DNA from: Candidatus Aerophobota bacterium
GTDB taxonomy: Bacteria; Aerophobota; Aerophobia; Aerophobales; B3-G15
Assembly: GCA_014859225.1 (NCBI GenBank)
Contig: JACUUP010000013.1
Coordinates: 1 to 23,702, forward strand
DNA: 23,702 bases
Direction of reading: 5' to 3'
The position numbers and the translations under genes are program-made. Every line of letters begins with the position of its first letter. Within the stretch, counting starts at the first letter, position 1. The notes below the pieces were generated by a model. That model was not told where the DNA came from, made no database searches, and worked only from the letters and a program-made list of their open reading frames with translations. Positions 2,479 to 22,491 of this stretch are shown in pieces.

Positions 2479-2502
2479 AAAAGGGGACAGATTTATTTTT
2501 TT
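2479..2502 (+). repeat. REP tag, single copy 1 (plus orientation)
   Basis: A short A-run followed by the core GGGGACAGATTTATT (2483-2497) and a T-run. It is identical to the tags that flank the transposase at 6354-7120. It lies between the DUF3467 stop (13 bases before the core) and the recX start (23 bases after the core). No recognisable Shine-Dalgarno remains in front of recX, so the insertion may have displaced it. Confidence 0.85.
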
Positions 2503-3016: not shown

Positions 3017-3041
3017 AAAAGGGGACAGATTTATTTTTTTA
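3017..3041 (+). repeat. REP tag, single copy 2 (plus orientation)
   Basis: AAAA, then the core GGGGACAGATTTATT (3021-3035) and a T-run, 17 bases after the recX stop codon. It has the same orientation and the same purine-rich left flank (GAAGAGAAAA) as the copies at 2483 and 20759. Confidence 0.85.
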
Positions 3042-3161: not shown

Positions 3162-4736
3162 ATGACTTTGCAACTTCATGAACTAATCGTCAAAGAGGCA
3201 ATTTTGACAGAGCTTGCTGGATGCACGAAACAAGAAGTGCTTACAGAGTTGATAGAAGCGCTCAAAAATGCGGGTAGATTAACCCGCTCAGATATAGTCT
3301 TACAAGATTTGCTCGCCCGGGAACGAAAGGGAACTACCGGTATAGGACAGGCAGTAGCTATTCCTCATACCTGTTCCAGCGCTGTTCATCAGCCAATGAT
3401 TGCCTTTGGAAGAAGCCGAACTGGTATTGGCCTTCAGGCTATTAATGGCAAACCAGTTAATTTAATTTTTCTCATACTGGGAAGGATAAATGGAGAGAGT
3501 CTTCAACTAAAAATTCTTGCCAGGCTGGGGCATATCTTAAGCATGCCTGGCATTATAAGGACTTTAAACAAGCTCGAATCACCAGAAGAAATTCTTAATT
3601 TTCTAAAAGCACGGGAAGAAAGTTTGGGTGAGATAGAGATGCCTGAGGGTATGCCTTCGGTGTGCGTGGTTGGCGCAGGGAACGGCGGGTTGGCTATGGC
3701 AGGACATCTTGCACTTATTGGCTGCCGGGTAAAACTTTTTAATAGAAGTGAAGAGCGGTTATCAGCTATCAAATTGTCGGGTGGCATTCAGGTTACGGGT
3801 GCAGTAAATGGTTTTGCCAGATTAAATTTAGTTACCACTAATCTTGGAGAAGCATTATCTGATGTAGAACTCGTAATGGTGGTTATTCCTGCTACGGGCC
3901 ACCGCGAGGTAGCAAGAATGCTTGGTTCACACTTAACAGATGGCCAGGTTGTAGTTTTAAACCCGGGTAGAACCGGAGGTGCGTTAGAGTTTGACGAAGT
4001 TTTTCGCCAATTAAAGGTTCCCAATTATTACTTTCTGGCTGAAGCAGAAACTCTTATCTATGCCTGCCGTATAACCAATCCTGGCCAGGTTCGGATTTTT
4101 GGAATTAAAAACACGGTTCCTGTGGCAACTCTTCCTGCCTATCATATTACGGATGTGCTTGTTGCTTTCAAGAAAGTTTTACCCCAGTTTATCCCCGGAG
4201 ATAATGTATTGAAGACGAGTTTAAGTAATATTGGTGCAGTATTTCACCCCGCTTTAACTGTGCTCAATGTTGCCTGGATTGAACAGCGTAAGGGAATCTT
4301 TGAATACTATCACGAAGGTGCAAGTCTTTCCGTGGCAAAAGTTCTGGAACATTTAGATGCAGAACGGGTTAAAGTGGCAGAAGCATTAGGTATAAGAGTT
4401 CTTAGTGCCAGAGAATGGCTTTATCAAGCCTATGGTGTAGCCGGGGATAATCTCTACGAAGCTATGCAGGCAAATAAGGGCTATAGAGGAATCAAGGCTC
4501 CCAATACTATCAATCATCGTTATGTCACCGAGGATGTTCCTACAAGCCTTGTGCCTATTGCTTCTCTGGGTGACCAATTTTCAGTGCCGGTACCCACAAT
4601 ACAAGCAATTATTCATCTTGCCAGTATTTTGCATAATCGCAATTATATGGCAGAGGGGAGAACTGTAGAAAAGCTTGGGCTGGCAGGGCTTACAGTTAGA
4701 CAAATTCGCAGGTTAGTAGAAGAAGGAAGAAAATAA
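3162..4736 (+). CDS. PTS EIIA (fructose/mannitol type) fused to opine dehydrogenase-like enzyme
   Basis: Two-domain protein of 524 residues from ATG 3162, which is chosen because GCGGGGTG lies just upstream; GTG 3135 would add nine residues. Residues about 4-155 are a PTS EIIA type-2 domain with the phosphorylatable histidine in AVAIPHTC (His69). After a short linker, residues about 165-524 are an NAD(P)-dependent octopine/nopaline dehydrogenase-like enzyme: Rossmann motif VVGAGNGGLAMAGH (about 169-182), and the family's conserved histidine in GAVFHPALTVLN. Opine dehydrogenases reductively couple amino acids with 2-oxo acids or run in reverse; the substrate here is unknown. No PTS EIIB/EIIC is nearby, so the EIIA part is more likely a regulatory phospho-sensor than a sugar-transport component. 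The stop overlaps the next start (TAATG), implying coupled translation. Confidence 0.88.
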   Translation: MTLQLHELIVKEAILTELAGCTKQEVLTELIEALKNAGRLTRSDIVLQDLLARERKGTTGIGQAVAIPHTCSSAVHQPMIAFGRSRTGIGLQAINGKPVNLIFLILGRINGESLQLKILARLGHILSMPGIIRTLNKLESPEEILNFLKAREESLGEIEMPEGMPSVCVVGAGNGGLAMAGHLALIGCRVKLFNRSEERLSAIKLSGGIQVTGAVNGFARLNLVTTNLGEALSDVELVMVVIPATGHREVARMLGSHLTDGQVVVLNPGRTGGALEFDEVFRQLKVPNYYFLAEAETLIYACRITNPGQVRIFGIKNTVPVATLPAYHITDVLVAFKKVLPQFIPGDNVLKTSLSNIGAVFHPALTVLNVAWIEQRKGIFEYYHEGASLSVAKVLEHLDAERVKVAEALGIRVLSAREWLYQAYGVAGDNLYEAMQANKGYRGIKAPNTINHRYVTEDVPTSLVPIASLGDQFSVPVPTIQAIIHLASILHNRNYMAEGRTVEKLGLAGLTVRQIRRLVEEGRK

Positions 4737-6406
4737 TGAGCTCACCACGAATTTTAGGAGCCTGTCTTGGAAAATGTGTTCATGCAGCAGGTATCCTTAA
4801 TTTTTTGCGTCTTGCTGAAAATCTCGGCTATGAAACCGAATTTATGGGTCCAGCCGTACCCATTGAAAGATTTGTCTCCAGGATATATGAAACAAAACCC
4901 CAGTTAGCTGTAGTAAGTTACCGACTGACTCCCGAGGTTGCCCGGGAGCTTTTCCGAGACTTGAAACAGGAACTTCAGAAGAAAAAAATAAGCGGGGTTA
5001 GATTTGCTTTTGGCGGGACTCCACCTGTAGCAGAAATAGCTCAAACTGCAGATATATTTGAAGCAGTCTTTTCCGGTGAGGAGCCCCGGGAGACAGTAGT
5101 TAATTATCTGAAGAAAAAGAGCCATCCGGCTAAAGTTAAGCAGTTTGCTAAGAGCCTGGTAGAGCGGATTAACGAGCAGCAGCCTTTTTCACTACTTCGG
5201 CATCATCTTGGCTTAAATACTTTAGAGAAAACGATAGAAGCAGCTCGCCAGATAGCGCTTTCTCAAGAACTGGACGTGTTAAGCATAGCCCCGGACCAAA
5301 ATGCCCAGGAATATTTCTTTCGTCCCCGGGATATGCCAACTACAGGTCATGGTGCAGGTGGTGTGCCTGTCCGCACACCGGAAGAGCTTCGGGCAATTTA
5401 CCAGGCTACTCGTTGTGGAAATTTTCCACTTGTTCGCTGCTACGCGGGAACAAACGACCTTATCCAGTGGGCGAAGATGAGTGTTGAAACGCTCAACATT
5501 GCCTGGGGAGCAATTCCCCTTTTCTGGTATAGTGAGCTGGATAAACGCTCAGAGCGACCACTTTTAGAAGCTATTAAGGAAAATCAGGCAACGATTAAAT
5601 GGTATGCTCAAAAGAAAATACCTGTGGAAGTCAACGATTCACATCAGTGGAGCCTGCGCGATGCTCACGATGCTGTTGCCGTGGCAGTTTCTTTTTTGGC
5701 AGCCTATAATGCCAGAGCACTGGGCGTCAGACACTACGTCTCCCAGTATATGCTGAATACCCCTCCTGAAATGAGCCCGGCAATGGATTTAGCTAAGATG
5801 CTTGCCAAGATGGAGATGATTGAGGCTCTTCATAATGAGCATTTCACATCTTTTCGCCAGATAAGAACAGGCTTAAGGAGTATGGCATCTGAGCTTGATG
5901 CAGCAAAAGGACAGTTGGCAGCATCAATTACCATTGGTATGGCTCTTAAGCCCCATATTGTGCATGTTGTTGGTTATTGTGAAGCAAATTATGCCGCTGG
6001 TGCGAGCGAGATTCTGGAAAGTTGTAGAATAACACGCGGTGCAATTCGTTTAGCGATAAAAGGGTTACCAGATGTGGTAGATTGTTCGGCGGTTTATCGG
6101 CGTAAAGAGCAGCTTATGGAAGAGGCAAACCTGATTATAAAAGCTATTCAGGAGCTTGGCAGGGAAGTGGAAGACCCTTTGATTGACCCGATTGTGCTGG
6201 AAAAAGCAGTGAGAACAGGAATTTTAGATGCGCCTCATTTATGTGGTTCTAAAGTTGCGAAGGGAGATGTGGTTACCGCTCCTGTTGAAGGTTGCTATGT
6301 GGCAATTGACCCGACCACTGGAAAAGTCTTGCCAGAAAAAGAGCGATTAGCTCAAAAAAAAGGGGACAGATTTATTTTTTCTTCTTTGGTCTTCCCTGTC
6401 CTCTAA
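4736..6406 (+). CDS. Cobalamin-binding-domain protein, mutase/TIM-barrel-like; C-terminus rewritten by REP insertion
   Basis: Protein of 556 residues. The N-terminal 130 residues resemble a B12-binding Rossmann domain: GKCVHAAG fits the DxHxxG motif with the cobalt-ligand histidine kept (His16) but the aspartate replaced. The rest looks like a catalytic barrel related to B12-dependent aminomutase or methylaspartate-mutase E chains (TTGHGAGGVPVRTPEEL, VRCYAGTNDLIQWA, VNDSHQWSLRDAHDAVA). The exact reaction cannot be assigned. It overlaps the opine-dehydrogenase gene by one base, so the two probably serve one amino-acid-related pathway. From about residue 540 the frame runs into the REP tag at 6354-6376 and then antisense into the transposase gene. 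The last 15 or so residues are therefore not native, and the original stop was probably near 6354. The 3' end overlaps the transposase tail by 35 bases. Confidence 0.85.
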   Translation: MSSPRILGACLGKCVHAAGILNFLRLAENLGYETEFMGPAVPIERFVSRIYETKPQLAVVSYRLTPEVARELFRDLKQELQKKKISGVRFAFGGTPPVAEIAQTADIFEAVFSGEEPRETVVNYLKKKSHPAKVKQFAKSLVERINEQQPFSLLRHHLGLNTLEKTIEAARQIALSQELDVLSIAPDQNAQEYFFRPRDMPTTGHGAGGVPVRTPEELRAIYQATRCGNFPLVRCYAGTNDLIQWAKMSVETLNIAWGAIPLFWYSELDKRSERPLLEAIKENQATIKWYAQKKIPVEVNDSHQWSLRDAHDAVAVAVSFLAAYNARALGVRHYVSQYMLNTPPEMSPAMDLAKMLAKMEMIEALHNEHFTSFRQIRTGLRSMASELDAAKGQLAASITIGMALKPHIVHVVGYCEANYAAGASEILESCRITRGAIRLAIKGLPDVVDCSAVYRRKEQLMEEANLIIKAIQELGREVEDPLIDPIVLEKAVRTGILDAPHLCGSKVAKGDVVTAPVEGCYVAIDPTTGKVLPEKERLAQKKGDRFIFSSLVFPVL

Positions 6407-7120
6407 ACTCAATTCTTCTTCTAATTTTCCTGGCAACGTCTTCAACAAATCGGATACTACCTGTTAACTGTCCTCTCTGGACTGCTTTTCGAATTATCTC
6501 CCATTCTCCCTCTGGAATGTCACCTTCGACCCACTCCTTATACCTTTTTCTACGCTCATCTTCGGTTAAGCCTAAACTATTATAGCAAGGGTCTAAATCT
6601 AACCACTCAAGGTTCTCTAACCCTACCTTATGTCTGTAACTTGACCACTTGTACTTTGTGGGTTCATCTACCATCCCAGCTCTTACAGGATTAAGTTCCA
6701 CATAACGACAACAGGCTAAAAGATATTCATCTTCCCTGATAGGGCTGGATTTGTATCTACCTTCCCATAGAGTTCCTCTTCGTTTCTTTACTTTATTTAC
6801 ATAGCGGGTTTGTCTTCCAGAGAGGTGTTTCATTAATAGTGCCAAGTTTTGTGCTTCCTTACCCGGATTGACTATTAGATGATAATGGTTAGTCATAAGA
6901 CAAAAAGCATAAACTTTACATCCCAAATCCTGCTTTAATCCCTTAAGGTTTTTAAGGTAATAAAGGTAATCCTCGTCACTTGTAAATACTACATCTCTGT
7001 TATGACCTCTTTGAATTATATGGTGCGGATAGTCAGGTAATATTATTCGTGATGTTCTTGGCATGAATTCATTTTACACAAATAAGATGTCTTGTCAATA
7101 AATAAATCTGTCCCCTTTTT
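6354..7120 (-). mobile_element. RAYT element: REP-associated tyrosine transposase with inverted REP tags at both ends
   Basis: The transposase gene (6372-7064, - strand) is enclosed by inverted copies of one sequence. The left end is an A-run plus GGGGACAGATTTATT at 6362-6376; the right end is AATAAATCTGTCCCC at 7101-7115 plus a T-run. The 15-base arms are perfect inverted repeats, and the left arm supplies the transposase stop codon. The same tag is scattered through the window, both singly and as hairpin pairs, which is the classic relation between a RAYT and its REP family. No obvious target-site duplication is visible, as expected for Y1 single-strand transposition. The element sits at the 3' end of the B12-protein gene. 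Confidence 0.88.
6372..7064 (-). CDS. REP-associated tyrosine transposase (Y1, IS200-like fold)
   Basis: Y1 HUH-type transposase of the RAYT (TnpA-REP) family, 230 residues. The metal-binding HUH motif is H60-Y61-H62 in CLMTNHYHLIV. The nucleophilic tyrosine is probably Tyr121 in CRYVELNPVRAG, which aligns with Tyr115 of E. coli TnpA-REP (VDYIYINPV). MPRTSRIILPDYPHHIIQRG at the N-terminus and WEGRYKSSPI are family hallmarks. The C-terminal extension beyond the core (Glu/Arg-rich, ending RPKKKK) is longer than in the E. coli protein. These enzymes nick and join single-stranded DNA next to REP hairpins. It appears intact: all catalytic residues are present and there is no frameshift, and its tags are nearly identical across the window, which suggests recent activity. 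It overlaps the B12-protein gene tail to tail. Confidence 0.93.
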   Translation of the reverse strand: MPRTSRIILPDYPHHIIQRGHNRDVVFTSDEDYLYYLKNLKGLKQDLGCKVYAFCLMTNHYHLIVNPGKEAQNLALLMKHLSGRQTRYVNKVKKRRGTLWEGRYKSSPIREDEYLLACCRYVELNPVRAGMVDEPTKYKWSSYRHKVGLENLEWLDLDPCYNSLGLTEDERRKRYKEWVEGDIPEGEWEIIRKAVQRGQLTGSIRFVEDVARKIRRRIEFRGQGRPKKKK

Positions 7121-7161
7121 CTATGGTCTAATAAATTACAAAGTAAGTGGTGTATACATCG

Positions 7162-7190
7162 TTGACATTATTTGCTATGTTTAATATATT
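7162..7190 (+). promoter_or_regulatory. Sigma-70-like promoter for the FkbM gene
   Basis: TTGACA at 7162-7167, a 17-base spacer and TATATT at 7185-7190, about 40 bases before the ATG at 7231. Both hexamers are near consensus. It lies just outside the right end of the RAYT element, so the methyltransferase gene has its own promoter. Confidence 0.65.
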
Positions 7191-7230
7191 TTAGCTAATG
7201 AATTAGAGAAAAATACTTGGGAGCTTATAC

Positions 7231-8217
7231 ATGAAGAGCGGCCTAAATACAGAGCTTATCAAATATAAATTAGAAAAAGATGGTTTTAAAACGCAAAGCT
7301 ACAAGTTAATAAGATCTTTACTGACAGACTTTTTTTATTCCTGGAATGATTTTATGATTGAATTAAAAAAGAGACATTTGCCACGCTCAATTATAAAAGA
7401 GATAAACGGATTTAAAATGTTCTTAGATTTAAAAAACGACAAAGGGCTATCAAGGGATTTGTATTATTATGGAAAAAGAGAAATCTTTTTAACGAATTAT
7501 TTATTAACCTCAAATATTTTGAAAAAAGGAGACGCTGTCTTAGATATAGGTGCAAATATCGGATATTATGCATTGCTTGAGTCGCGGTTAGTTGGTGAAA
7601 ACGGACGTGTCTATGCAATTGAGCCTGTCTCAAGTAGCTATGAGAATCTAATTAAAAACATTGAACTAAATAATATTAAAAATATTGACTGCTATAATTT
7701 AGGTGCTGGTAGCTATAGTGGCAAAGCGTTGATTAATGTTAGCAAAAAAAGAAACTGGTCTTCTCTTATAGACAGAACAGGTATGCACTTTTTTAAAAAA
7801 GAAGAAATTGAAATAGTGCGCATGGACGACTTTCTAAAAGGTAAAAAAATACCCAATCTAGTTCGAATGGATGTAGAAGGATATGAATATGCCATATTAG
7901 ATGGGATGCAAGAAGTTCTCGGCACAAAAGATTTAAAACTTCTTATTGAAATCCATCCCGATATAATGACAGAAAAACAAGTTCAAAATATGTTTGTGCT
8001 TTTAAAAAATAATGGATTTAAGAATGCTGTGATAATATTTGAACTTTCCCGGGGGTGGCTAAACCAAAAAGATAAAGTGAGACCAATAGTAAAATGGCTA
8101 ACCGAGAAAATAGGTGACACAGAAAGGCTTGGTGAAATCAAGGAAACAGACATGGATTCAGTTGAAAAATTTTTATTGAAAGAACGAAAATCAACCCAGG
8201 TATTTTTCTACAACTAA
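7231..8217 (+). CDS. FkbM family SAM-dependent methyltransferase
   Basis: FkbM-type methyltransferase, 328 residues. The SAM-binding motif is AVLDIGANIGYYAL (residues about 102-115), followed by GRVYAIEPVSSSYENL and the family motif VRMDVEGYEYAILDGM (about 211-226). FkbM enzymes O-methylate sugars or polyketides, often in surface-glycan clusters, but no glycosyltransferase is adjacent here. Codon use is markedly more AT-rich and lysine-rich than in the flanking B12 and aldehyde dehydrogenase genes. It is bracketed by the RAYT element on the left and a second-family repeat tag at 8221 on the right. This points to a separately acquired gene dropped between two older ones. The substrate is unknown. 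Confidence 0.88.
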   Translation: MKSGLNTELIKYKLEKDGFKTQSYKLIRSLLTDFFYSWNDFMIELKKRHLPRSIIKEINGFKMFLDLKNDKGLSRDLYYYGKREIFLTNYLLTSNILKKGDAVLDIGANIGYYALLESRLVGENGRVYAIEPVSSSYENLIKNIELNNIKNIDCYNLGAGSYSGKALINVSKKRNWSSLIDRTGMHFFKKEEIEIVRMDDFLKGKKIPNLVRMDVEGYEYAILDGMQEVLGTKDLKLLIEIHPDIMTEKQVQNMFVLLKNNGFKNAVIIFELSRGWLNQKDKVRPIVKWLTEKIGDTERLGEIKETDMDSVEKFLLKERKSTQVFFYN

Positions 8218-10069: not shown

Positions 10070-10090
10070 AATAAATCTGTCCCCTTTTTT
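10070..10090 (-). repeat. REP tag, single copy 3 (minus orientation)
   Basis: AATAAATCTGTCCCC (10070-10084) plus a T-run, 50 bases after the STAS stop codon. It is the reverse complement of the tags at 2483, 3021 and 20759. The rest of 10020-10314 is AT-rich non-coding DNA in which only weak promoter-like hexamers can be seen ahead of typA. Confidence 0.85.
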
Positions 10091-10314: not shown

Positions 10315-12063
10315 ATGGAAATCAGAAACATTGCTATTATTGCTCACGTTGACCATGGAAAGACCACGTTAACCGATGCATTAATGCGTCAAACTGGAGC
10401 TATTCAAGAAGGAGTCACCATGGATTCAAATGCGCTTGAGCAGGAACGCGGTCTTACTATCTATTCTAAAAATGCCGCTATTTTCTATAGAGACACAAAA
10501 ATTAATATTGTTGACACGCCGGGTCATGCTGATTTTGGCTCAGAAGTGGAGCGCGTGCTGCGCTCAATAGACTCGGTTCTATTGCTTGTAGACGCTCAAG
10601 AAGGACCTATGACGCAAACTCGTTTTGTTTTGAAAAAATCTTTGGAACTTGGACTCAGGCCCATCGTGGTGATTAACAAAATTGACAAAAAAGCTGCCAA
10701 TCCGAAACGTTGCGAAGATCAGGTTTTAGAACTTTTCTTTGAACTAGGGGCTACTGACAAGCAAATAGAGTTTCCGGTTGTCTATACTGTTGGCCGATTA
10801 GGTATTGCTAAAAAAAGCCTTGATGATGACTCCAGCGACCTTACGCCGCTCCTTGATACAGTTGTTGACTATGTTCCTTGCACGTCATCTCAAAGATTAT
10901 CTCAAAAACCCCTCATGCTTCAACCGTTTAATCTGGGATACGATAATTTTTTAGGGCGATTGGCAATTGGTCGTGTTTATGAAGGAGTCGTTTCTCCGGG
11001 AAAGAATGTTTTTATTAAAAAGCCCAATGGCGAGATGCGGTCAGGCAAAATCACCAAAGTTTTTACCTTCAAGGGATTAGAAAGAATAGAAACAACTGAA
11101 GCAGGCTCAGGAGATATTGTTCTTATTGCAGGGCTTCCCAATGTCTATATCGGAGAAACAATCACAACCGATGAAAAAGTGCAGCCACTCCCTGCTATCG
11201 CTGTTGACGAACCGACAATTGCCTTAACATTCTTGGTGAACAATTCTCCTTTTGCCGGGCAAAATGGAAAGTATGTAACATCACGGAAAATACGGGAATA
11301 CTTGAAGCGCGAAGTGGAAGTGAATGTTGGATTGCGAGTTGATTTTGATTCATCGGACAGCTTCAAAGTGTTTGGGCGAGGAGAACTGCACATTGAAATA
11401 TTGCTTGAGAATATGCGCAGGTCAAGCTACGAGCTTCAAGTCTCTCAACCGCAAGTTATTATCCGCCAGGAAAATGGAAATAAAGTTGAGCCGTTCGAAG
11501 AAGTAATTATTGACATTTCCAGTGAATACCAGGGAATGGTTATTGAACGCCTCGGTGCAAGGGGTTTTGTTTTAAAAGCGGTTATTGACAATGAAAAACT
11601 CGTACGCCTTACTTTTGAGGGTCCGACGCGCGGACTCTTGGGTTACCGCAATCAATTTATTATAGATACGAAGGGACAAGGAATCATTTCGTCTCGCGTT
11701 GTCGGTTTTCGTCCTTACGTAGGAGAAATTCGCAAGCGCAGCGTTGGGTCCATGATCTCAATGGCTAATGGAAAAGCGCTTGGCTATGCCTTATGGGGCT
11801 TGCAAAAGCGGGGGGTACTATATATTGGTCCAGGAACCAGGGTTTATAACGGAATGGTAATTGGTAATACTTCAAAGGGAGAAGAAATGGCGGTGAATCC
11901 AACCAAAGGTAAGCAGCTTACCAATATGCGTTCATCTTCTTCAGACGAAGCAACCGATTTAGTGCCTCCGTTTACACTAACTATTGGAAGAGCTTTGCAG
12001 GTTATGGCAGAAGATGAATACTTAGAGGTAACTCCTAACAATATTCGTTTGCGTAAAAAATAG
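10315..12063 (+). CDS. typA: Translational GTPase TypA/BipA
   Basis: Ribosome-associated GTPase of the EF-G superfamily, 582 residues. The start at ATG 10315 is set by TAGGAG eight bases upstream and by the family's usual opening (MEIRNIAIIAHVDHGKTTL); in-frame triplets further upstream lack a ribosome binding site. GTPase motifs: AHVDHGKTT (G1, residues 10-18), ERGLTI (G2; the family usually has ERGITI), DTPGHADFG (G3), VVINKID (G4). Downstream are the domain II barrel, the EF-G III/V-like domains with FGRGELHIEILLENMRR, and the BipA-specific C-terminal region with RGLLGYRNQF. BipA assists ribosome biogenesis and stress or cold adaptation. The gene appears complete. Its stop codon abuts the dispersed repeat that starts at 12064. 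Confidence 0.96.
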   Translation: MEIRNIAIIAHVDHGKTTLTDALMRQTGAIQEGVTMDSNALEQERGLTIYSKNAAIFYRDTKINIVDTPGHADFGSEVERVLRSIDSVLLLVDAQEGPMTQTRFVLKKSLELGLRPIVVINKIDKKAANPKRCEDQVLELFFELGATDKQIEFPVVYTVGRLGIAKKSLDDDSSDLTPLLDTVVDYVPCTSSQRLSQKPLMLQPFNLGYDNFLGRLAIGRVYEGVVSPGKNVFIKKPNGEMRSGKITKVFTFKGLERIETTEAGSGDIVLIAGLPNVYIGETITTDEKVQPLPAIAVDEPTIALTFLVNNSPFAGQNGKYVTSRKIREYLKREVEVNVGLRVDFDSSDSFKVFGRGELHIEILLENMRRSSYELQVSQPQVIIRQENGNKVEPFEEVIIDISSEYQGMVIERLGARGFVLKAVIDNEKLVRLTFEGPTRGLLGYRNQFIIDTKGQGIISSRVVGFRPYVGEIRKRSVGSMISMANGKALGYALWGLQKRGVLYIGPGTRVYNGMVIGNTSKGEEMAVNPTKGKQLTNMRSSSSDEATDLVPPFTLTIGRALQVMAEDEYLEVTPNNIRLRKK

Positions 12064-12232
12064 AGGGTCAAACCTTGACATTTAAGTTCAGCTGATGACC
12101 AGTCCGCTTTGATGCGTGCAGCATCATTGTAATCAACTGAAAGAGTAGTAGCTTGACCTTTTCCCCATCTCGTGCGATAATAATCTTGCCTGAAACACAA
12201 CCTTTTCATGAAAGAGGCTGGCTATGGAAAAC
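12064..12232 (+). repeat. Long dispersed repeat, copy 1, with conserved promoter
   Basis: About 170 bases that match 22324-22491 at roughly four bases in five. Shared blocks include ccttgacatttaag/tcttgacatttaag, GTCCGCTTTGATG, GCAGCATCATTGTAATCAAC, GTGCGATAATAATC and ACAACCTTTTCATG. It starts at the typA stop codon and ends in the first codons of the broken creatininase gene. The strongest conservation covers a promoter-like pair described separately. A reading frame on the opposite strand is destroyed by stops in the second copy, so the repeat is probably non-coding. Confidence 0.75.
12153..12181 (+). promoter_or_regulatory. Sigma-70-like promoter inside repeat copy 1
   Basis: TTGACC, a 17-base spacer and GATAAT, followed by further A/T. 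The same hexamers with the same 17-base spacing occur in repeat copy 2 although the spacer bases differ, which suggests that function rather than recent copying preserved them. It points at the creatininase relic, the XRE gene and the ABC exporter. Confidence 0.55.
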
Positions 12233-12352
12233 TTTCTTTTATCCGATATGAGTGGATATACCTACAAAAAAGTTGATTTCGACAAAGCAATACTTTGTTT
12301 GGGTTCAACGGAAAATCACGGAGACCATCTTCCTCTGGGAAAGCTACTTTAG
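12224..12352 (+). pseudogene. Creatininase family N-terminal fragment (broken gene)
   Basis: ATG 12224 follows an AAAGAGG ribosome binding site and opens a 42-residue frame that ends at TAG 12350. Residues 23-39 read ILCLGSTENHGDHLPLG, which is the opening motif of creatininase/MftE-like amidohydrolases (LPxGSTEQHGPHLPLGTD, metal-binding Glu and His present). Normal members are about 230-260 residues long, so only the first sixth remains. The sequence after it reads into the XRE gene frame, with no recognisable creatininase body. The gene was cut by a rearrangement. Confidence 0.65.
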
Positions 12353-12636: not shown

Positions 12637-12700
12637 AAAAAAAAGGGGACAGATTTATTGTAGCTCCAATTTTCAATGAATAAATCTGTCCCCTTTTTTT
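12637..12700. repeat. REP inverted pair A (hairpin)
   Basis: Left arm: A-run and GGGGACAGATTTATT (12645-12659). Right arm: AATAAATCTGTCCCC (12679-12693) and a T-run. The arms are perfectly complementary over 15 bases, extended by seven A:T pairs. The 19-base loop contains CCAATTTTCAATG. It lies between the XRE gene and the ABC exporter. Confidence 0.9.
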
Positions 12701-12776: not shown

Positions 12777-14591
12777 ATGCTTTCAAGAGACTCAAGAGAA
12801 AAGATGCCAGTAAAAACCAGGATAGAAAAGGGATGGTGCCTGTTAAAAAGATTCTATCAGGAGTATGCTACACCTTTTAAGGGGAAAATTTTTACCATAT
12901 GGGCCCTGCATGTTCTATTTGCAGTGGCTTTGATTATGCCGCCCGTCCTTGTTAAAGAGCTCATTGATAGGGGAATACTGGGTAAGGATATGCGCCTCGT
13001 CTTTCTTATAGGAAGTATCATCGTGGTAGTGTTTGTTTTCATTGCTGTAATAGACAAACTTCGAACCTTCTGGGGCCACATTATTGCCCAAAAAGTCACA
13101 TATAACTTGCGAAACAATCTTTATGCTCATCTACAAAAACTCTCCTTTAGATTCTATGACAACATAAGGATTGGCGAGCTTCTCTCCCGAATAATAGATG
13201 ACTTAAACGTGGTTCAGGAGATAATACACCATGGTCCGGAAAATATAATTGCCAATGGATGCCTCATAGTGCTCACCATCGTGATGGTTTTGTACCTCAA
13301 CTGGAGACTTGCTCTGGCCACAATCCTCATAGTGCCTGCAATAGCTATCTGCGTCTACCTTCTTTCTCTCAAGATGTTTAAAGGGTCCCGGGAGGTGAGG
13401 GGGAAGATGGCTTCCTTTGTTGCCCGAGCAGAGGACAATCTATCCGGTATGAGAATTATCCAGTCATTTGTGCGAGAAAATTATGAAATGGGAAGATTTG
13501 ACAGAGAAAATCTGGAACATTATAAAAGCAGAGTTAAAGTGATCAGCCCTATGTCCTGGCTATTTCCCATTTCCATACTTATCCTGGGTATTTCCCTCGC
13601 TGTCACGGTAAGTTATGGTGGCTACCAGGTGATAGAAGGGGTAATGACAATTGGCACCCTTACTGCTTTTGTCATGTATCTGCAGCGGTTTATGTGGCCT
13701 CTCATTGCAATTTCAATGCTCAGTGAGACAGTTATGCGTTTTCTGGCTGGAATTGAAAGATTCTTCACGTATATGGATATGTATCCTGATATTGAAGATT
13801 CACCACAGGCTGTTACTTTGAAGGAAGTGAGGGGAGACATCCAGTTTAAAGATGTTTGGTTCAAGTACGATGAGGAGACTGCTCTAAAGGGCATAAATTT
13901 TTCTATCCGTGCGGGTGAAACTATTGCTCTGGTTGGACCTTCCGGGGCAGGAAAAACCACGATTACAGCACTTATCCCTCGCTTTTATGAACCTTACAAA
14001 GGAAACATCCTACTTGATGGGAAAGATATAAGAGATATCAAGCTTCACTCTCTAAGAGCTCAGATTGGAATTATCATGCAGGACGACTATCTTTTCTTCG
14101 ATACTCTGCTGAACAATATATGCTATGGTCGCCTGGATGCCTCCAAAGGGGAAATCATAGAAGCAGCAAAACAGGCCAATGTTCACCAGTTTGTGGAAGA
14201 GTTTCCTGATGGATATGATACAGAGATTGGGGAAAGAGGGGCTAAAGTCTCCAAAGGTCAGGCTCAACGCATCTCTATAGCACGAGCTATACTGAAGGAT
14301 CCCCCTATACTTATCCTTGACGAGGCAACCTCTTCGGTTGATACAGAAACTGAGCTTCTCATCCAGGAGGCCCTTGATAAATTAATGAAGAACAAAACCT
14401 GTATTGCCATCGCTCACAGACTCAGCACCATTATAGGGGCTGACAGAATTCTTTTTGTAGAAAATGGCAGAATTACGGAAGAAGGAATTCATGAAGAGCT
14501 CCTGCGAAAAGGTGGAAGGTACGCTAATTTCTACAATCTTCAGTTTAACCCGAGCTCGAGAGCCGTATCTCAACAGAGAATGTACCATTAA
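12777..14591 (+). CDS. ABC exporter, fused permease-ATPase (MsbA/lipid A type)
   Basis: Half-size exporter with six membrane helices (about residues 25-320 from ATG 12777) and a C-terminal ATPase. Walker A is GPSGAGKT (387-394), the Q-loop IIMQDD, Walker B ILILDEATSSVD (aspartate near 515), and the switch histidine is in AIAHRLST. The signature motif is VSKGQAQR (Ser492) instead of LSGGQ: the first conserved glycine is lysine, which is unusual and may lower ATPase activity or imply heterodimerisation. ATG 12777 or 12804 is the likely start; the TTG at 12699 lies inside the REP hairpin. The substrate is unknown (lipids, peptides or drugs). The last 243 bases and the following 23 exist again, broken, at 20807-21072, so a second paralog once existed here. 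Confidence 0.92.
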   Translation: MLSRDSREKMPVKTRIEKGWCLLKRFYQEYATPFKGKIFTIWALHVLFAVALIMPPVLVKELIDRGILGKDMRLVFLIGSIIVVVFVFIAVIDKLRTFWGHIIAQKVTYNLRNNLYAHLQKLSFRFYDNIRIGELLSRIIDDLNVVQEIIHHGPENIIANGCLIVLTIVMVLYLNWRLALATILIVPAIAICVYLLSLKMFKGSREVRGKMASFVARAEDNLSGMRIIQSFVRENYEMGRFDRENLEHYKSRVKVISPMSWLFPISILILGISLAVTVSYGGYQVIEGVMTIGTLTAFVMYLQRFMWPLIAISMLSETVMRFLAGIERFFTYMDMYPDIEDSPQAVTLKEVRGDIQFKDVWFKYDEETALKGINFSIRAGETIALVGPSGAGKTTITALIPRFYEPYKGNILLDGKDIRDIKLHSLRAQIGIIMQDDYLFFDTLLNNICYGRLDASKGEIIEAAKQANVHQFVEEFPDGYDTEIGERGAKVSKGQAQRISIARAILKDPPILILDEATSSVDTETELLIQEALDKLMKNKTCIAIAHRLSTIIGADRILFVENGRITEEGIHEELLRKGGRYANFYNLQFNPSSRAVSQQRMYH

Positions 14592-14636
14592 AAAAACGAG
14601 GAGGTGAATAGATAAGGAAGAAAAGGAAGATTTGTT

Positions 14637-16126: not shown

Positions 16127-16404
16127 AACATCGCCGAAGCCATGCCGGAGAGGCGCAAAACTTACCGGGAGAAAAACAACATAGAAGATGTTAAACCTTA
16201 CAAAAAGCAAACACCTCGTTCGGTTACATCTTATATGACCCAACAGGAGGTCATTGGGTTACATAGTTAAATGACTTGACACGGATTTTTCTTTAAGAGG
16301 TAATTTTCCTGCGGAGACAGATTTATTTCAGTTACAATTTTCAATAAATAAATCTGTCTCCTTTTTTAGTCTCCTATGCGCATATAACGATGTAAAAACA
16401 CCTT
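16127..16404. other. Convergent intergenic region with short repeats
   Basis: Gap between the MBL gene (+) and the radical SAM gene (-). A 42-codon frame (16142-16270) is present but unsupported. Two near-direct repeats, ggttacatcttatatgac (16222-16239) and ggttacatagttaaatgac (16257-16275), flank a small imperfect palindrome (TGACCCAA ... TTGGGTTA). REP pair B follows at 16313-16361. Confidence 0.5.
16313..16367. repeat. REP inverted pair B (hairpin with matched arm change)
   Basis: Arms GGAGACAGATTTATT (16313-16327) and AATAAATCTGTCTCC (16347-16361) are perfectly complementary over 15 bases around a 19-base loop containing ACAATTTTCAATA, and a T-run follows. Both arms differ from the consensus at the same paired position (G to A and C to T), so the stem is intact. 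Lying between convergent genes with a T-run, it could also end transcription. Confidence 0.9.
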
Positions 16405-20094: not shown

Positions 20095-20157
20095 AAAAAA
20101 AGGGGACAGATTTATTTTTCCCATATATTTTCATAAATAAATCTGTCCCCTTTTTTT
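20095..20157. repeat. REP inverted pair C (hairpin)
   Basis: Seven A, then GGGGACAGATTTATT (20102-20116), a 19-base loop ending ATTTTCATA, AATAAATCTGTCCCC (20136-20150) and seven T. The arms are perfect. It lies in the divergent region between the AmrS relic (-) and the exported protein gene (+), so here it is not a shared terminator site. Confidence 0.92.
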
Positions 20158-20233: not shown

Positions 20234-20743
20234 ATGGATAAAAACAAATCGGTAAGAAAATCCAGGGTAGATAGCTGGTGGGCGAGAAAGACATTAGTGA
20301 GCCTTGCATGTGCGGTTATCGCCATGACAGCTTTTGTCTTTGGGAGCGCTGCAGCTGCCCAGGAAAAGGGGTTTGGTCTCGGTATTGTCGTGGGTGAGCC
20401 AACTGGCATCTGCTTCAAGAGGTGGGTGGATGAAAACTCTGCATTTGCCGGTGCTGCTGCCTGGTCGTTTACCAGACCAAGTGCGCTCCACGTGCATGTT
20501 GACTACCTTCTCCACAGAAGAGTTCAGGAGGAGCTGTATTTTTTCCACTATGGTATTGGAGGACGCATTAAGTTTGAAAAAGGTAAAAGCAGAATTGGCA
20601 TTCGCATACCCCTCGGAATAACCTATCCTTTCCCGGGAACAATCATGGATATGTTCATAGAAATTAGCCCGTTACTTGACCTTATGCCTGCAACCGAGTT
20701 TGGTGTGAATGGAACAGTTGGCTTCAGGTACTTCTTTGAATAA
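20234..20743 (+). CDS. Exported beta-barrel-like protein of unknown function
   Basis: Protein of 169 residues with a long basic N-terminus, a hydrophobic segment (residues about 20-38) and a plausible signal peptidase site after GSAAAA. The mature part alternates hydrophobic and polar residues with frequent glycine and aromatic residues: GFGLGIVVGEPTGICFKRWV, ALHVHVDYLLHRR, GRIKFEKGKSRIGIRIPLG, and it ends in Phe-Glu after GTVGFRYF. This is the pattern of small outer-membrane beta-barrels, and it resembles DUF3996-like proteins (GIVxGEPTGI...KxW). Function is unknown. AAGGAG lies eight bases before the ATG. A REP tag follows 15 bases after the stop codon. Confidence 0.8.
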   Translation: MDKNKSVRKSRVDSWWARKTLVSLACAVIAMTAFVFGSAAAAQEKGFGLGIVVGEPTGICFKRWVDENSAFAGAAAWSFTRPSALHVHVDYLLHRRVQEELYFFHYGIGGRIKFEKGKSRIGIRIPLGITYPFPGTIMDMFIEISPLLDLMPATEFGVNGTVGFRYFFE

Positions 20744-20753
20744 AGAAAAAAAG

Positions 20754-20778
20754 AAAAAGGGGACAGATTTATTTTTTG
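20754..20778 (+). repeat. REP tag, single copy 4 (plus orientation)
   Basis: A-run, core GGGGACAGATTTATT (20759-20773) and a T-run, 15 bases after the stop of the exported-protein gene. The broken ABC-exporter duplicate begins about 30 bases further on. Confidence 0.85.
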
Positions 20779-20800: not shown

Positions 20801-21049
20801 CAAACAACTGAGCTTCTCATCCAGGAAGCCCTGGATAAATTAATGAAGAAGAAAACCTGTATTGCCATCGTTCATAGACTCAGCACCATTATAGGGGCAG
20901 ATAGAATTCTCTTTGTAGAAAATGGCGAAATTACGGAAGAAGGAACTTATGAAGAGTTACTACAAAAAAGCGGAAGGTAGGCTAATTTCTACAATCTCCA
21001 GTTTAACCCGAGCTCCAGAGCCTTATCTCAACAGAGAATGTACCATTAA
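20801..21049 (+). pseudogene. Broken duplicate of the ABC exporter C-terminus
   Basis: From about 20806 the sequence repeats 14348-14591 at roughly nine bases in ten and the same length (243 bases from the shared ACT codon to the stop). It encodes TELLIQEALDKLMKKKTC, AIVHRLSTIIGADRILFVEN and so on, and ends in SQQRMYH like the intact gene. A TAG at 20978-20980 replaces the Tyr codon of GGRYANF. Walker A, Walker B and all membrane helices are missing. Many differences are at third codon positions, so this copy diverged while still functional and was truncated later. Homology continues through the AGGAGGTGAATAGAT in front of the next gene. Confidence 0.88.
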
Positions 21050-21071
21050 AAAAACGAGGAGGTGAATAGAT

Positions 21072-21389
21072 ATGGCGGTGTTTAAAATAGTATTTATGTT
21101 CGTGGCACAAAATGCTGACCCTGAAAAGCATAGAGTTTCACTCTCTACATCCCCGGGGCGTGAATTGGTAGTTATCGGAGTAAAAGATTACAAACAGGCA
21201 GTTGAGGTAAGCAAGAAGCTCGTGGAACAAGAAGGGGTTGGAGTGATTGAACTTTGTGCTGGCTTTGGCCATGTGGGCACAGCGGAAGTAGCGAAGGCAG
21301 TTGGCAATAAAGTTAGGGTTGGGGTAGTTCGCTTTGATTCTCACCCCGCGTTAGAATTTAAAAGCGGCGACGATATCTTTAAGATTTGA
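21072..21389 (+). CDS. DUF6506 family protein
   Basis: Small soluble protein of 105 residues: FKIVFMFVAQNADPEKHR at the start, GRELVVIGVKDYKQAVEVSKKLVEQEGVGVIELCAGFG in the middle, and VRVGVVRFDSH at the end. It matches the DUF6506 pattern, whose function is not known; the alternation of strands and helices suggests a small ferredoxin-like or Rossmann-like fold. Its strong AGGAGGTGAATAGAT leader is shared with the 3' flank of the intact ABC exporter, so DUF6506 probably once followed a full ABC exporter gene. It ends convergently with the acetolactate decarboxylase gene. Confidence 0.8.
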   Translation: MAVFKIVFMFVAQNADPEKHRVSLSTSPGRELVVIGVKDYKQAVEVSKKLVEQEGVGVIELCAGFGHVGTAEVAKAVGNKVRVGVVRFDSHPALEFKSGDDIFKI

Positions 21390-22312: not shown

Positions 22313-22323
22313 ACGAAATCCAG

Positions 22324-22491
22324 AGGGTCAGGTCTTGACATTTAAGTTTTGCTCATCACGGGTCCGCTTTGATGTCTGCAGCATCATTGTAATCAACTAA
22401 AAGTAGTAACTTGACCTTCCACCCTCCTTGTGCGATAATAATCCTCTCAGAACTACAACCTTTTCATGGAAGAGATTGGCTATGGAAAACT
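22324..22491 (+). repeat. Long dispersed repeat, copy 2, with conserved promoter
   Basis: Second copy of the roughly 170-bp repeat at 12064. It starts AGGGTCAGGTCTTGACATTT and ends at tatggaaaact. The promoter-like pair TTGACC, 17 bases, GATAAT is kept. Downstream, a short frame (MENSKKTFKRYSIKEATYG, from ATG 22483) ends a few bases inside the flavodoxin-like gene, overlapping its start, and could be a leader peptide, though nothing else supports it. Confidence 0.75.
22412..22440 (+). promoter_or_regulatory. Sigma-70-like promoter inside repeat copy 2
   Basis: TTGACC, a 17-base spacer and GATAAT, at the same place in the repeat as in copy 1. It is about 95 bases before the flavodoxin-like gene. 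Confidence 0.55.

Follow-up and report, generated by a model that had tools for sequence, protein, structure and literature searches.

The ends of IS200/IS605 elements carry subterminal hairpins and no true terminal inverted repeats (TIRs). TIRYTs, a kind of Y1 tyrosine transposase, were reportedly named in 2013 from sequence alone. Di Nocera et al. described the units concerned, TIRtrons, as bounded by TIRs matching GGGGWSAS (PMC3733652). REPs, the repeats of REP-associated tyrosine transposases (RAYTs), are defined by a GTAG or GTGG foot beside a hairpin of their own (PMC6006769, PMC3733652), and transposition of a REPtron as a whole is said not to occur. The motif Y---NP is the signature of class-2 TnpA-Y1 proteins. 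Subclass 2.1, to which most known TIRYTs belong, has no REPs, and the TIRYTs listed in it are all said to carry an HTH-type C-terminal domain (PMC6006769), this HTH-like domain being Bac_DnaA_C, HTH_23 or HTH_28. In the literature searched, the term TIRYT is scarce and one paper calls for further analysis. TIRtrons and TIRYTs are a known but little-studied kind, for which the evidence of mobility presented here is better than that in the literature found.

We analysed a stretch of 23,702 nucleotides (the window) from a Candidatus Aerophobota genome, containing a locus that is very likely a TIRtron, probably of horizontal origin, and the source of about 40 short derivatives. Its 15- to 20-letter end sequence, hereafter the tag, is copied to about 40 places in the genome and, judged from sequence, this small jumping gene is probably active. 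A single clade of such units provides the pieces that are usually missing, i.e. an autonomous unit, a matching TIR family, MITEs and a decayed copy, and also near-identical recent copies, horizontal spread and a tag load that tracks the enzyme. The system bears on the origin of REP/REPIN systems from mobile units, and the clade provides defined substrates for in vitro testing.

The transposase unit and its ends

The first-pass annotation had described this locus as a RAYT accompanied by its own REP family. The features of the unit are as follows:

6354..7120, minus strand: autonomous TIRYT unit (TIRtron), in which inverted 15-bp tags with A/T runs enclose the transposase
6362..6376, plus strand: TIR tag, 3' end of the unit, containing the transposase TAA stop codon
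6372..7064, minus strand: Y1 HUH transposase (TIRYT), 230 aa, with H60-Y61-H62, Tyr121 and a Y---NP motif, no C-terminal HTH
7071..7098, minus strand: promoter-like TTGACA-16-TAAAAT just inside the 5' tag, 11/12 matches, the count for the region being not above that in shuffles
7101..7115, minus strand: TIR tag, 5' end of the unit, continuing TTTATTTATTGACA

The two tags, at 6362 (+) and 7101 (-), delimit a unit of 754 bp, and the same layout is observed around the relatives at L011, L012, L014, L015, L018, L032 and L154, L018 coming from a culturable carrier, Desulfuromusa kysingii DSM 7343. The gene hosting the insertion (4736-6406) is B12-binding. The tag at 6362-6376 and another at 6567-6581 of locus L098 are read in frame at the 3' ends of their host genes, and the proteins thereby gain KGDRFI(F/Y)... 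at the C-terminus.

The transposase has Y1_Tnp as its sole Pfam domain (PF01797, E 1.4e-12) and scores 79.2 bits against the NCBIfam model for REP-associated tyrosine transposases (NF047646), for which the curated cut-off is 80. The first reading of the sequence had proposed H60-Y-H62 and a probable Tyr121, and had placed the end of the gene inside its own tag. Both proposals are borne out, the former by conservation of H60, H62, Y121, N125 and P126 in 33/34 aligned sequences and the latter by the TAA stop within 6362-6376. By sequence, the nearest solved structures are the IS200-type transposases 2f4f and 2ec2, the match to TnpAREP (4er8) being weak. With subclass 2.1 of the TnpA-Y1 proteins, the enzyme shares the Y---NP motif (Y121...N125-P126), the HUH core and the absence of REPs; it differs in being only 230 aa long and in lacking the HTH-type C-terminal domain, the alignment showing that the C-terminal extension of longer relatives is absent. 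A second, different TIRYT in the same genome (contig C77, locus L117, gene at 13828, 287 aa, 34% identity) does resemble subclass 2.1; its C-terminus is HTH-like and it has a TIR of its own, GGGGTCAGGTCTTGCAATAT.

The tag is not a REP but forms the TIRs of the 754-bp unit that bears the transposase, which makes the unit a TIRtron with a TIRYT; its TIRs fit GGGGWSAS (here GGGGACAG). A REP identity was considered and rejected, as the unit conserved among 52 aligned copies has no GTAG or GTGG foot and a lone tag folds at 0 kcal/mol. Thus, of the first-pass annotation, membership of the RAYT superfamily stands (PF01797, and NF047646 just short of its cut-off), but the tags cannot be called REPs. 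In common with described TIRtrons, the locus has a Y1 tyrosine transposase, GGGGWSAS inverted repeats and a moderately abundant TIR family occurring singly, as dimers or in groups. What differs here is that one TIR is kept across phyla by one defined clade, that copies of the whole unit are demonstrated together with internal-deletion MITEs and a decayed unit, and that the C-terminus is short and without HTH. With IS200/IS605 elements and their MITE/PATE derivatives, the system shares a Y1 transposase, an autonomous unit and internally deleted non-autonomous relatives; unlike theirs, the ends of the window unit are inverted repeats without a local hairpin. No printed occurrence of the tag's reverse complement (14 of its bases) was found, and GGGGACAG occurs in one bacterial paper as part of a PCR primer.

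Dispersed copies of the tag

Beside the unit, the window contains the following elements:

2483..2497, plus strand: solo tag, 13 bp past the stop of ORF 2185-2469
3021..3035, plus strand: solo tag, 17 bp past the stop codon of a recX-like gene
10070..10084, minus strand: solo tag upstream of a typA/bipA-like gene, continuing as TTTATTT in the manner of the 5' end
12645..12693, no strand: 49-bp inverted tag pair, a hairpin-forming mini-element (fold -17.9 kcal/mol, z -8.2)
16313..16361, no strand: 49-bp inverted pair of GGAG variant tags (fold z -7.7)
20102..20150, no strand: 49-bp inverted pair, a mini-element between divergent genes (fold z -9.2)
20759..20773, plus strand: solo tag, 15 bp past the stop of ORF 20234-20743

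The twelve tag positions first listed are all correct. The tag, GGGGACAGATTTATT, was confirmed at 12/12 sites, ten of them exact, and the pair at 16313/16347, said to be the only one to differ, indeed does so, carrying GGAG and reading GGAGACAGATTTATT. The twelve tags form eight elements, i.e. the transposase unit with its two ends, three inverted pairs and four solo tags, and the pairs at 12645-12693 and 16313-16361 have the inner sequence CAATTTTCAAT in common. Allowing up to 3 mismatches, 13 matches were found in the window versus 0.93 in dinucleotide shuffles of it.

Pattern searches of the whole genome (1,806,108 bp in 273 contigs) yielded 53 exact and 5 one-mismatch copies, versus 0 for the reversed control over the same 1.81 Mb and about 0.003 exact copies expected by chance. 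The tags thus occur far above chance, and the same sequence bounds the gene, in agreement with the proposal that they are the transposase's own family. The conserved repeat is wider than 15 bases. In 52 aligned copies, it reads approximately A5-GGGGACAGATTTATT-T4, conservation starting some five A ahead of GGGG, ending some four T past ATTTATT and not extending outside these limits; most copies have nothing in common beyond about 24 bp. A 20-base version of the tag has 59 copies, 41 of them exact and almost none at three mismatches. The uniformity claimed at first reading therefore holds, and with almost no decayed tail the family is either young or tightly kept.

The window is atypical of the genome, with 8 elements versus 0.47 expected from the rest of it (Poisson P ~4e-8), and contig C82 is also enriched in tags. 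Local hopping around the enzyme may be one reading of this double enrichment. In genome G135, the largest tag cluster is about 0.65 Mb away from the closest TIRYT copy. Tag centres lie within ORFs in 6/53 cases, ORFs making up 83% of the sequence, and many tags are 3-25 bp downstream of a stop codon, solo tags often being found just past one. The orientation of tags relative to gene ends was also looked at, with few unidirectional cases. Several tags continue into TTTATTTATTG, which at the transposon 5' end is the inner sequence. As DNA, a single tag forms no hairpin and solo tags with their flanks fold weakly at best; inverted pairs fold as hairpins of 16-25 bp with z of about -8 to -9.

Genome-wide, the copies take the form of unit ends, inverted pairs (49 bp within the window, reaching 85 bp elsewhere), solo tags, tandem tags (contigs C32 and C94) and a decayed unit. 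The pairs on C13 (2951-3035) and C191 (15463-15534) have a common loop but different flanks, from which it follows that the pair was copied as a unit. The decayed unit is present on C82 (205 bp) and on C255 (168 bp). Its two ends are still there, along with a stretch of about 110 bp that aligns with the 3' portion of the transposase gene at 75-76%. Both relics lie within one duplicated segment and hence represent one insertion. The transposase of the window type has a single intact copy in the genome.

In locus L098 on contig C82, a gene for a 468-aa MBL-fold-like protein lies between two inverted tags (6567-8138), the second of which is four bases past its stop codon. The 5' inner sequence of this arrangement is also found in a 68-bp mini-element at 3591-3658. 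The gene is possibly cargo or an old transposon 5' end.

Relatives and copied units

The closest relatives of the transposase, at 59-67% identity over full length, belong to Desulfobulbaceae, Desulfuromonadaceae, other Desulfobacterota and unplaced Proteobacteria, and in most of them the 15-mer stands unchanged at one gene end or at both. A tree of 67 Y1 proteins contains one mainly Desulfobacterota clade that includes the window protein and has more than 50% identity to it; the clade's transposases, at 50-67% identity, are found in Desulfobacterota, in a P. aeruginosa plasmid record and in the window genome. A tag within 2 mismatches at one end or more was found in 33/37 clade relatives and 0/29 relatives outside (Fisher 1e-13 after removal of duplicate loci). 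Relatives outside the clade carry TIRs that differ in sequence but not in style, such as GGGGTCAGATTCyaATTATT, GGGGTCAGTTCTCGCAT and AGGGACACATCCCATTTT.

No close enzyme and 0 exact tags were found in the other 16 genomes of the phylum, in line with the expectation that tags be missing where the enzyme is missing, and this distribution fits horizontal arrival followed by recent amplification. With the window protein inside the mainly Desulfobacterota clade, horizontal arrival is the simplest reading, and the unit probably entered this genome from a lineage whose best representatives today are Desulfobacterota. A search of the phylum relatives for an empty site found no close homologue of the host gene 4736-6406. 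A phage vector was considered and rejected: viral contigs contained neither a relative nor an inverted pair, and phages gave one weak, partial hit (31%) and no match to the MITE.

Mobility of whole units is seen in NZ_CP116719.1 (locus L154), a 24.3-kb plasmid record of P. aeruginosa strain 2858. It contains three units that are 99.3-99.9% identical and have 32-bp perfect inverted ends; their 5' flanks differ and the 3' flank is common to two of them. It also contains several elements of about 160-180 bp built from the unit's first 137 and last 59 bp; these are internal-deletion MITEs of standard MITE build. At the level of sequence, units of the window transposase's clade are thus copied, and the unit with its ends, the coupling of clade and TIR, the near-identity of copies and the copying of pairs and units into unrelated flanks can all be read directly. 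The gene-and-tag pair is hence also present in unrelated bacteria, where its movement is testable. Plasmid matches to the enzyme other than this record were all below 44% identity, and none of the E. coli genomes matched the P. aeruginosa unit. In the same record (1-24299), 26 tag matches at up to 3 mismatches occur in 24 kb, and a CdiA-like orphan toxin/immunity cassette array has units and MITEs placed between one small ORF and the next, as if punctuating the cassettes.

These results bear on the canonical alternative, in which a domesticated RAYT, vertically kept as a single-copy gene, mobilises the hairpins of a REP/REPIN family and is itself immobile. The likeness is real, as the enzyme is related to RAYTs at the superfamily level, one intact gene copy is present in the genome, and the short dispersed repeats are mostly intergenic and often in inverted pairs, like REPINs. 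REPs, however, have a foot and a hairpin of their own, whereas here the tag has neither and forms the TIR of the gene unit, and the unit moves. Moreover, the close enzyme is missing from the 16 phylum relatives, and its closest relatives belong to other phyla. With whole units copied at 99.3-99.9% identity and a decayed unit left behind, the first-pass annotation's domesticated, immobile RAYT with satellites fails for this clade; this alternative is strongly disfavoured and we regard it as highly improbable.

Tag load across genomes and a model of mobility

The relation between enzyme and tags was examined in one Desulfobacterota order (257 genomes), counting as enzyme-bearing those with a protein at about 52% identity or more. 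The enzyme is present in 28/257 genomes, 17 of which have exact tags (mean 2.96 tags over the 28), and exact tags occur in 44 of the 229 other genomes (Fisher P = 9e-6 for tag presence, enzyme-bearing versus all the rest). Genomes without a TIRYT match at E 1e-40 have a mean of 0.26 tags; 32/185 of them still carry tags, at most 4. The anticipated difference in load, 2.96 versus 0.26, is therefore observed.

Genomes G130 and G135 are 93-99% identical at the flanks compared. In both, one end of the resident unit is GGGGACGG, a variant that recurs among the dispersed copies. Several tag sites differ between the two by gain, loss or replacement of a tag; at these sites, the neighbouring sequence is often replaced and not simply interrupted, and no clean empty site was found in the comparison. 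One rearrangement breakpoint coincides with a tag (L156 19700-19999 in G130 versus L163 and L161 in G135).

Such a breakpoint would fit a dispersal of tags through homologous recombination, through segmental duplication or by another transposase, the TIRYT being inactive, and some copies do have common flanks through duplication (L108/L115, C82/C255). Against this, most copies diverge immediately outside the repeat, copies match the ends of the resident TIRYT, down to the recurring end variant of G130 and G135, and tag load tracks the enzyme across the 257 genomes, which makes this explanation very unlikely. The least likely reading, that the tag is a host functional motif under selection (bidirectional terminator, uptake sequence or protein-binding site) with the transposase merely lying between two copies, draws on the perfectly conserved core, the many tags just past stop codons and the hairpins of inverted pairs followed by T runs, but is contradicted by the 0 exact tags in 16 relatives, by the motif's position on either side of the transposase in P. 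aeruginosa as well as in other phyla, by the tags that continue into the transposon 5'-end inner sequence, and by pairs located between divergent genes, as at 20102.

We therefore favour the TIRtron, for which the following model can be proposed. The autonomous transposon consists of a class-2 Y1/HUH transposase between inverted ends of about 20 bp, AAAAA-GGGGACAGATTTATT-TTT(T/A). Its derivatives are the inverted pairs of 49-85 bp (MITE/REPIN-like hairpins), the solo ends and the internally deleted copy with a transposase fragment. By analogy with its enzyme family, the transposase, by means of Tyr121 and the HUH pair, would nick single-stranded DNA within the A/T runs beside GGGG; elements would move as single-stranded intermediates, and in an inverted pair the transposase would recognise the stem formed by both tags. 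Solo ends may arise by one-ended copying or by recombination at tags. More tentatively, and with some doubt, the transposase might be able to copy a single end, in which case solo tags (about 20-25 bases in random flanks) would be near-minimal mobile DNA, with an end kept almost unchanged across several phyla by an enzyme clade that has itself diverged to about 50% identity.

Other repeats were observed alongside. In Omnitrophota, loci L026 and L029 have a transposase of a different clade and a different end sequence, AAATAGGGACACATCCCATTTT, and each has an inverted pair immediately upstream of the transposase gene. In the window genome, another dispersed repeat of about 70-240 bp, with AGTGTCAAAACTA...TTCAATGTCAAGATCTGACCC, is found at L091, L095, L107, L108, L110 and L115, and some of its copies directly adjoin a tag. 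Finally, the window itself has two repeat pairs unrelated to the tags, 14348-14617 / 20806-21075 (91% identical over 270 bp) and 12062-12233 / 22322-22491 (83% over 172 bp).
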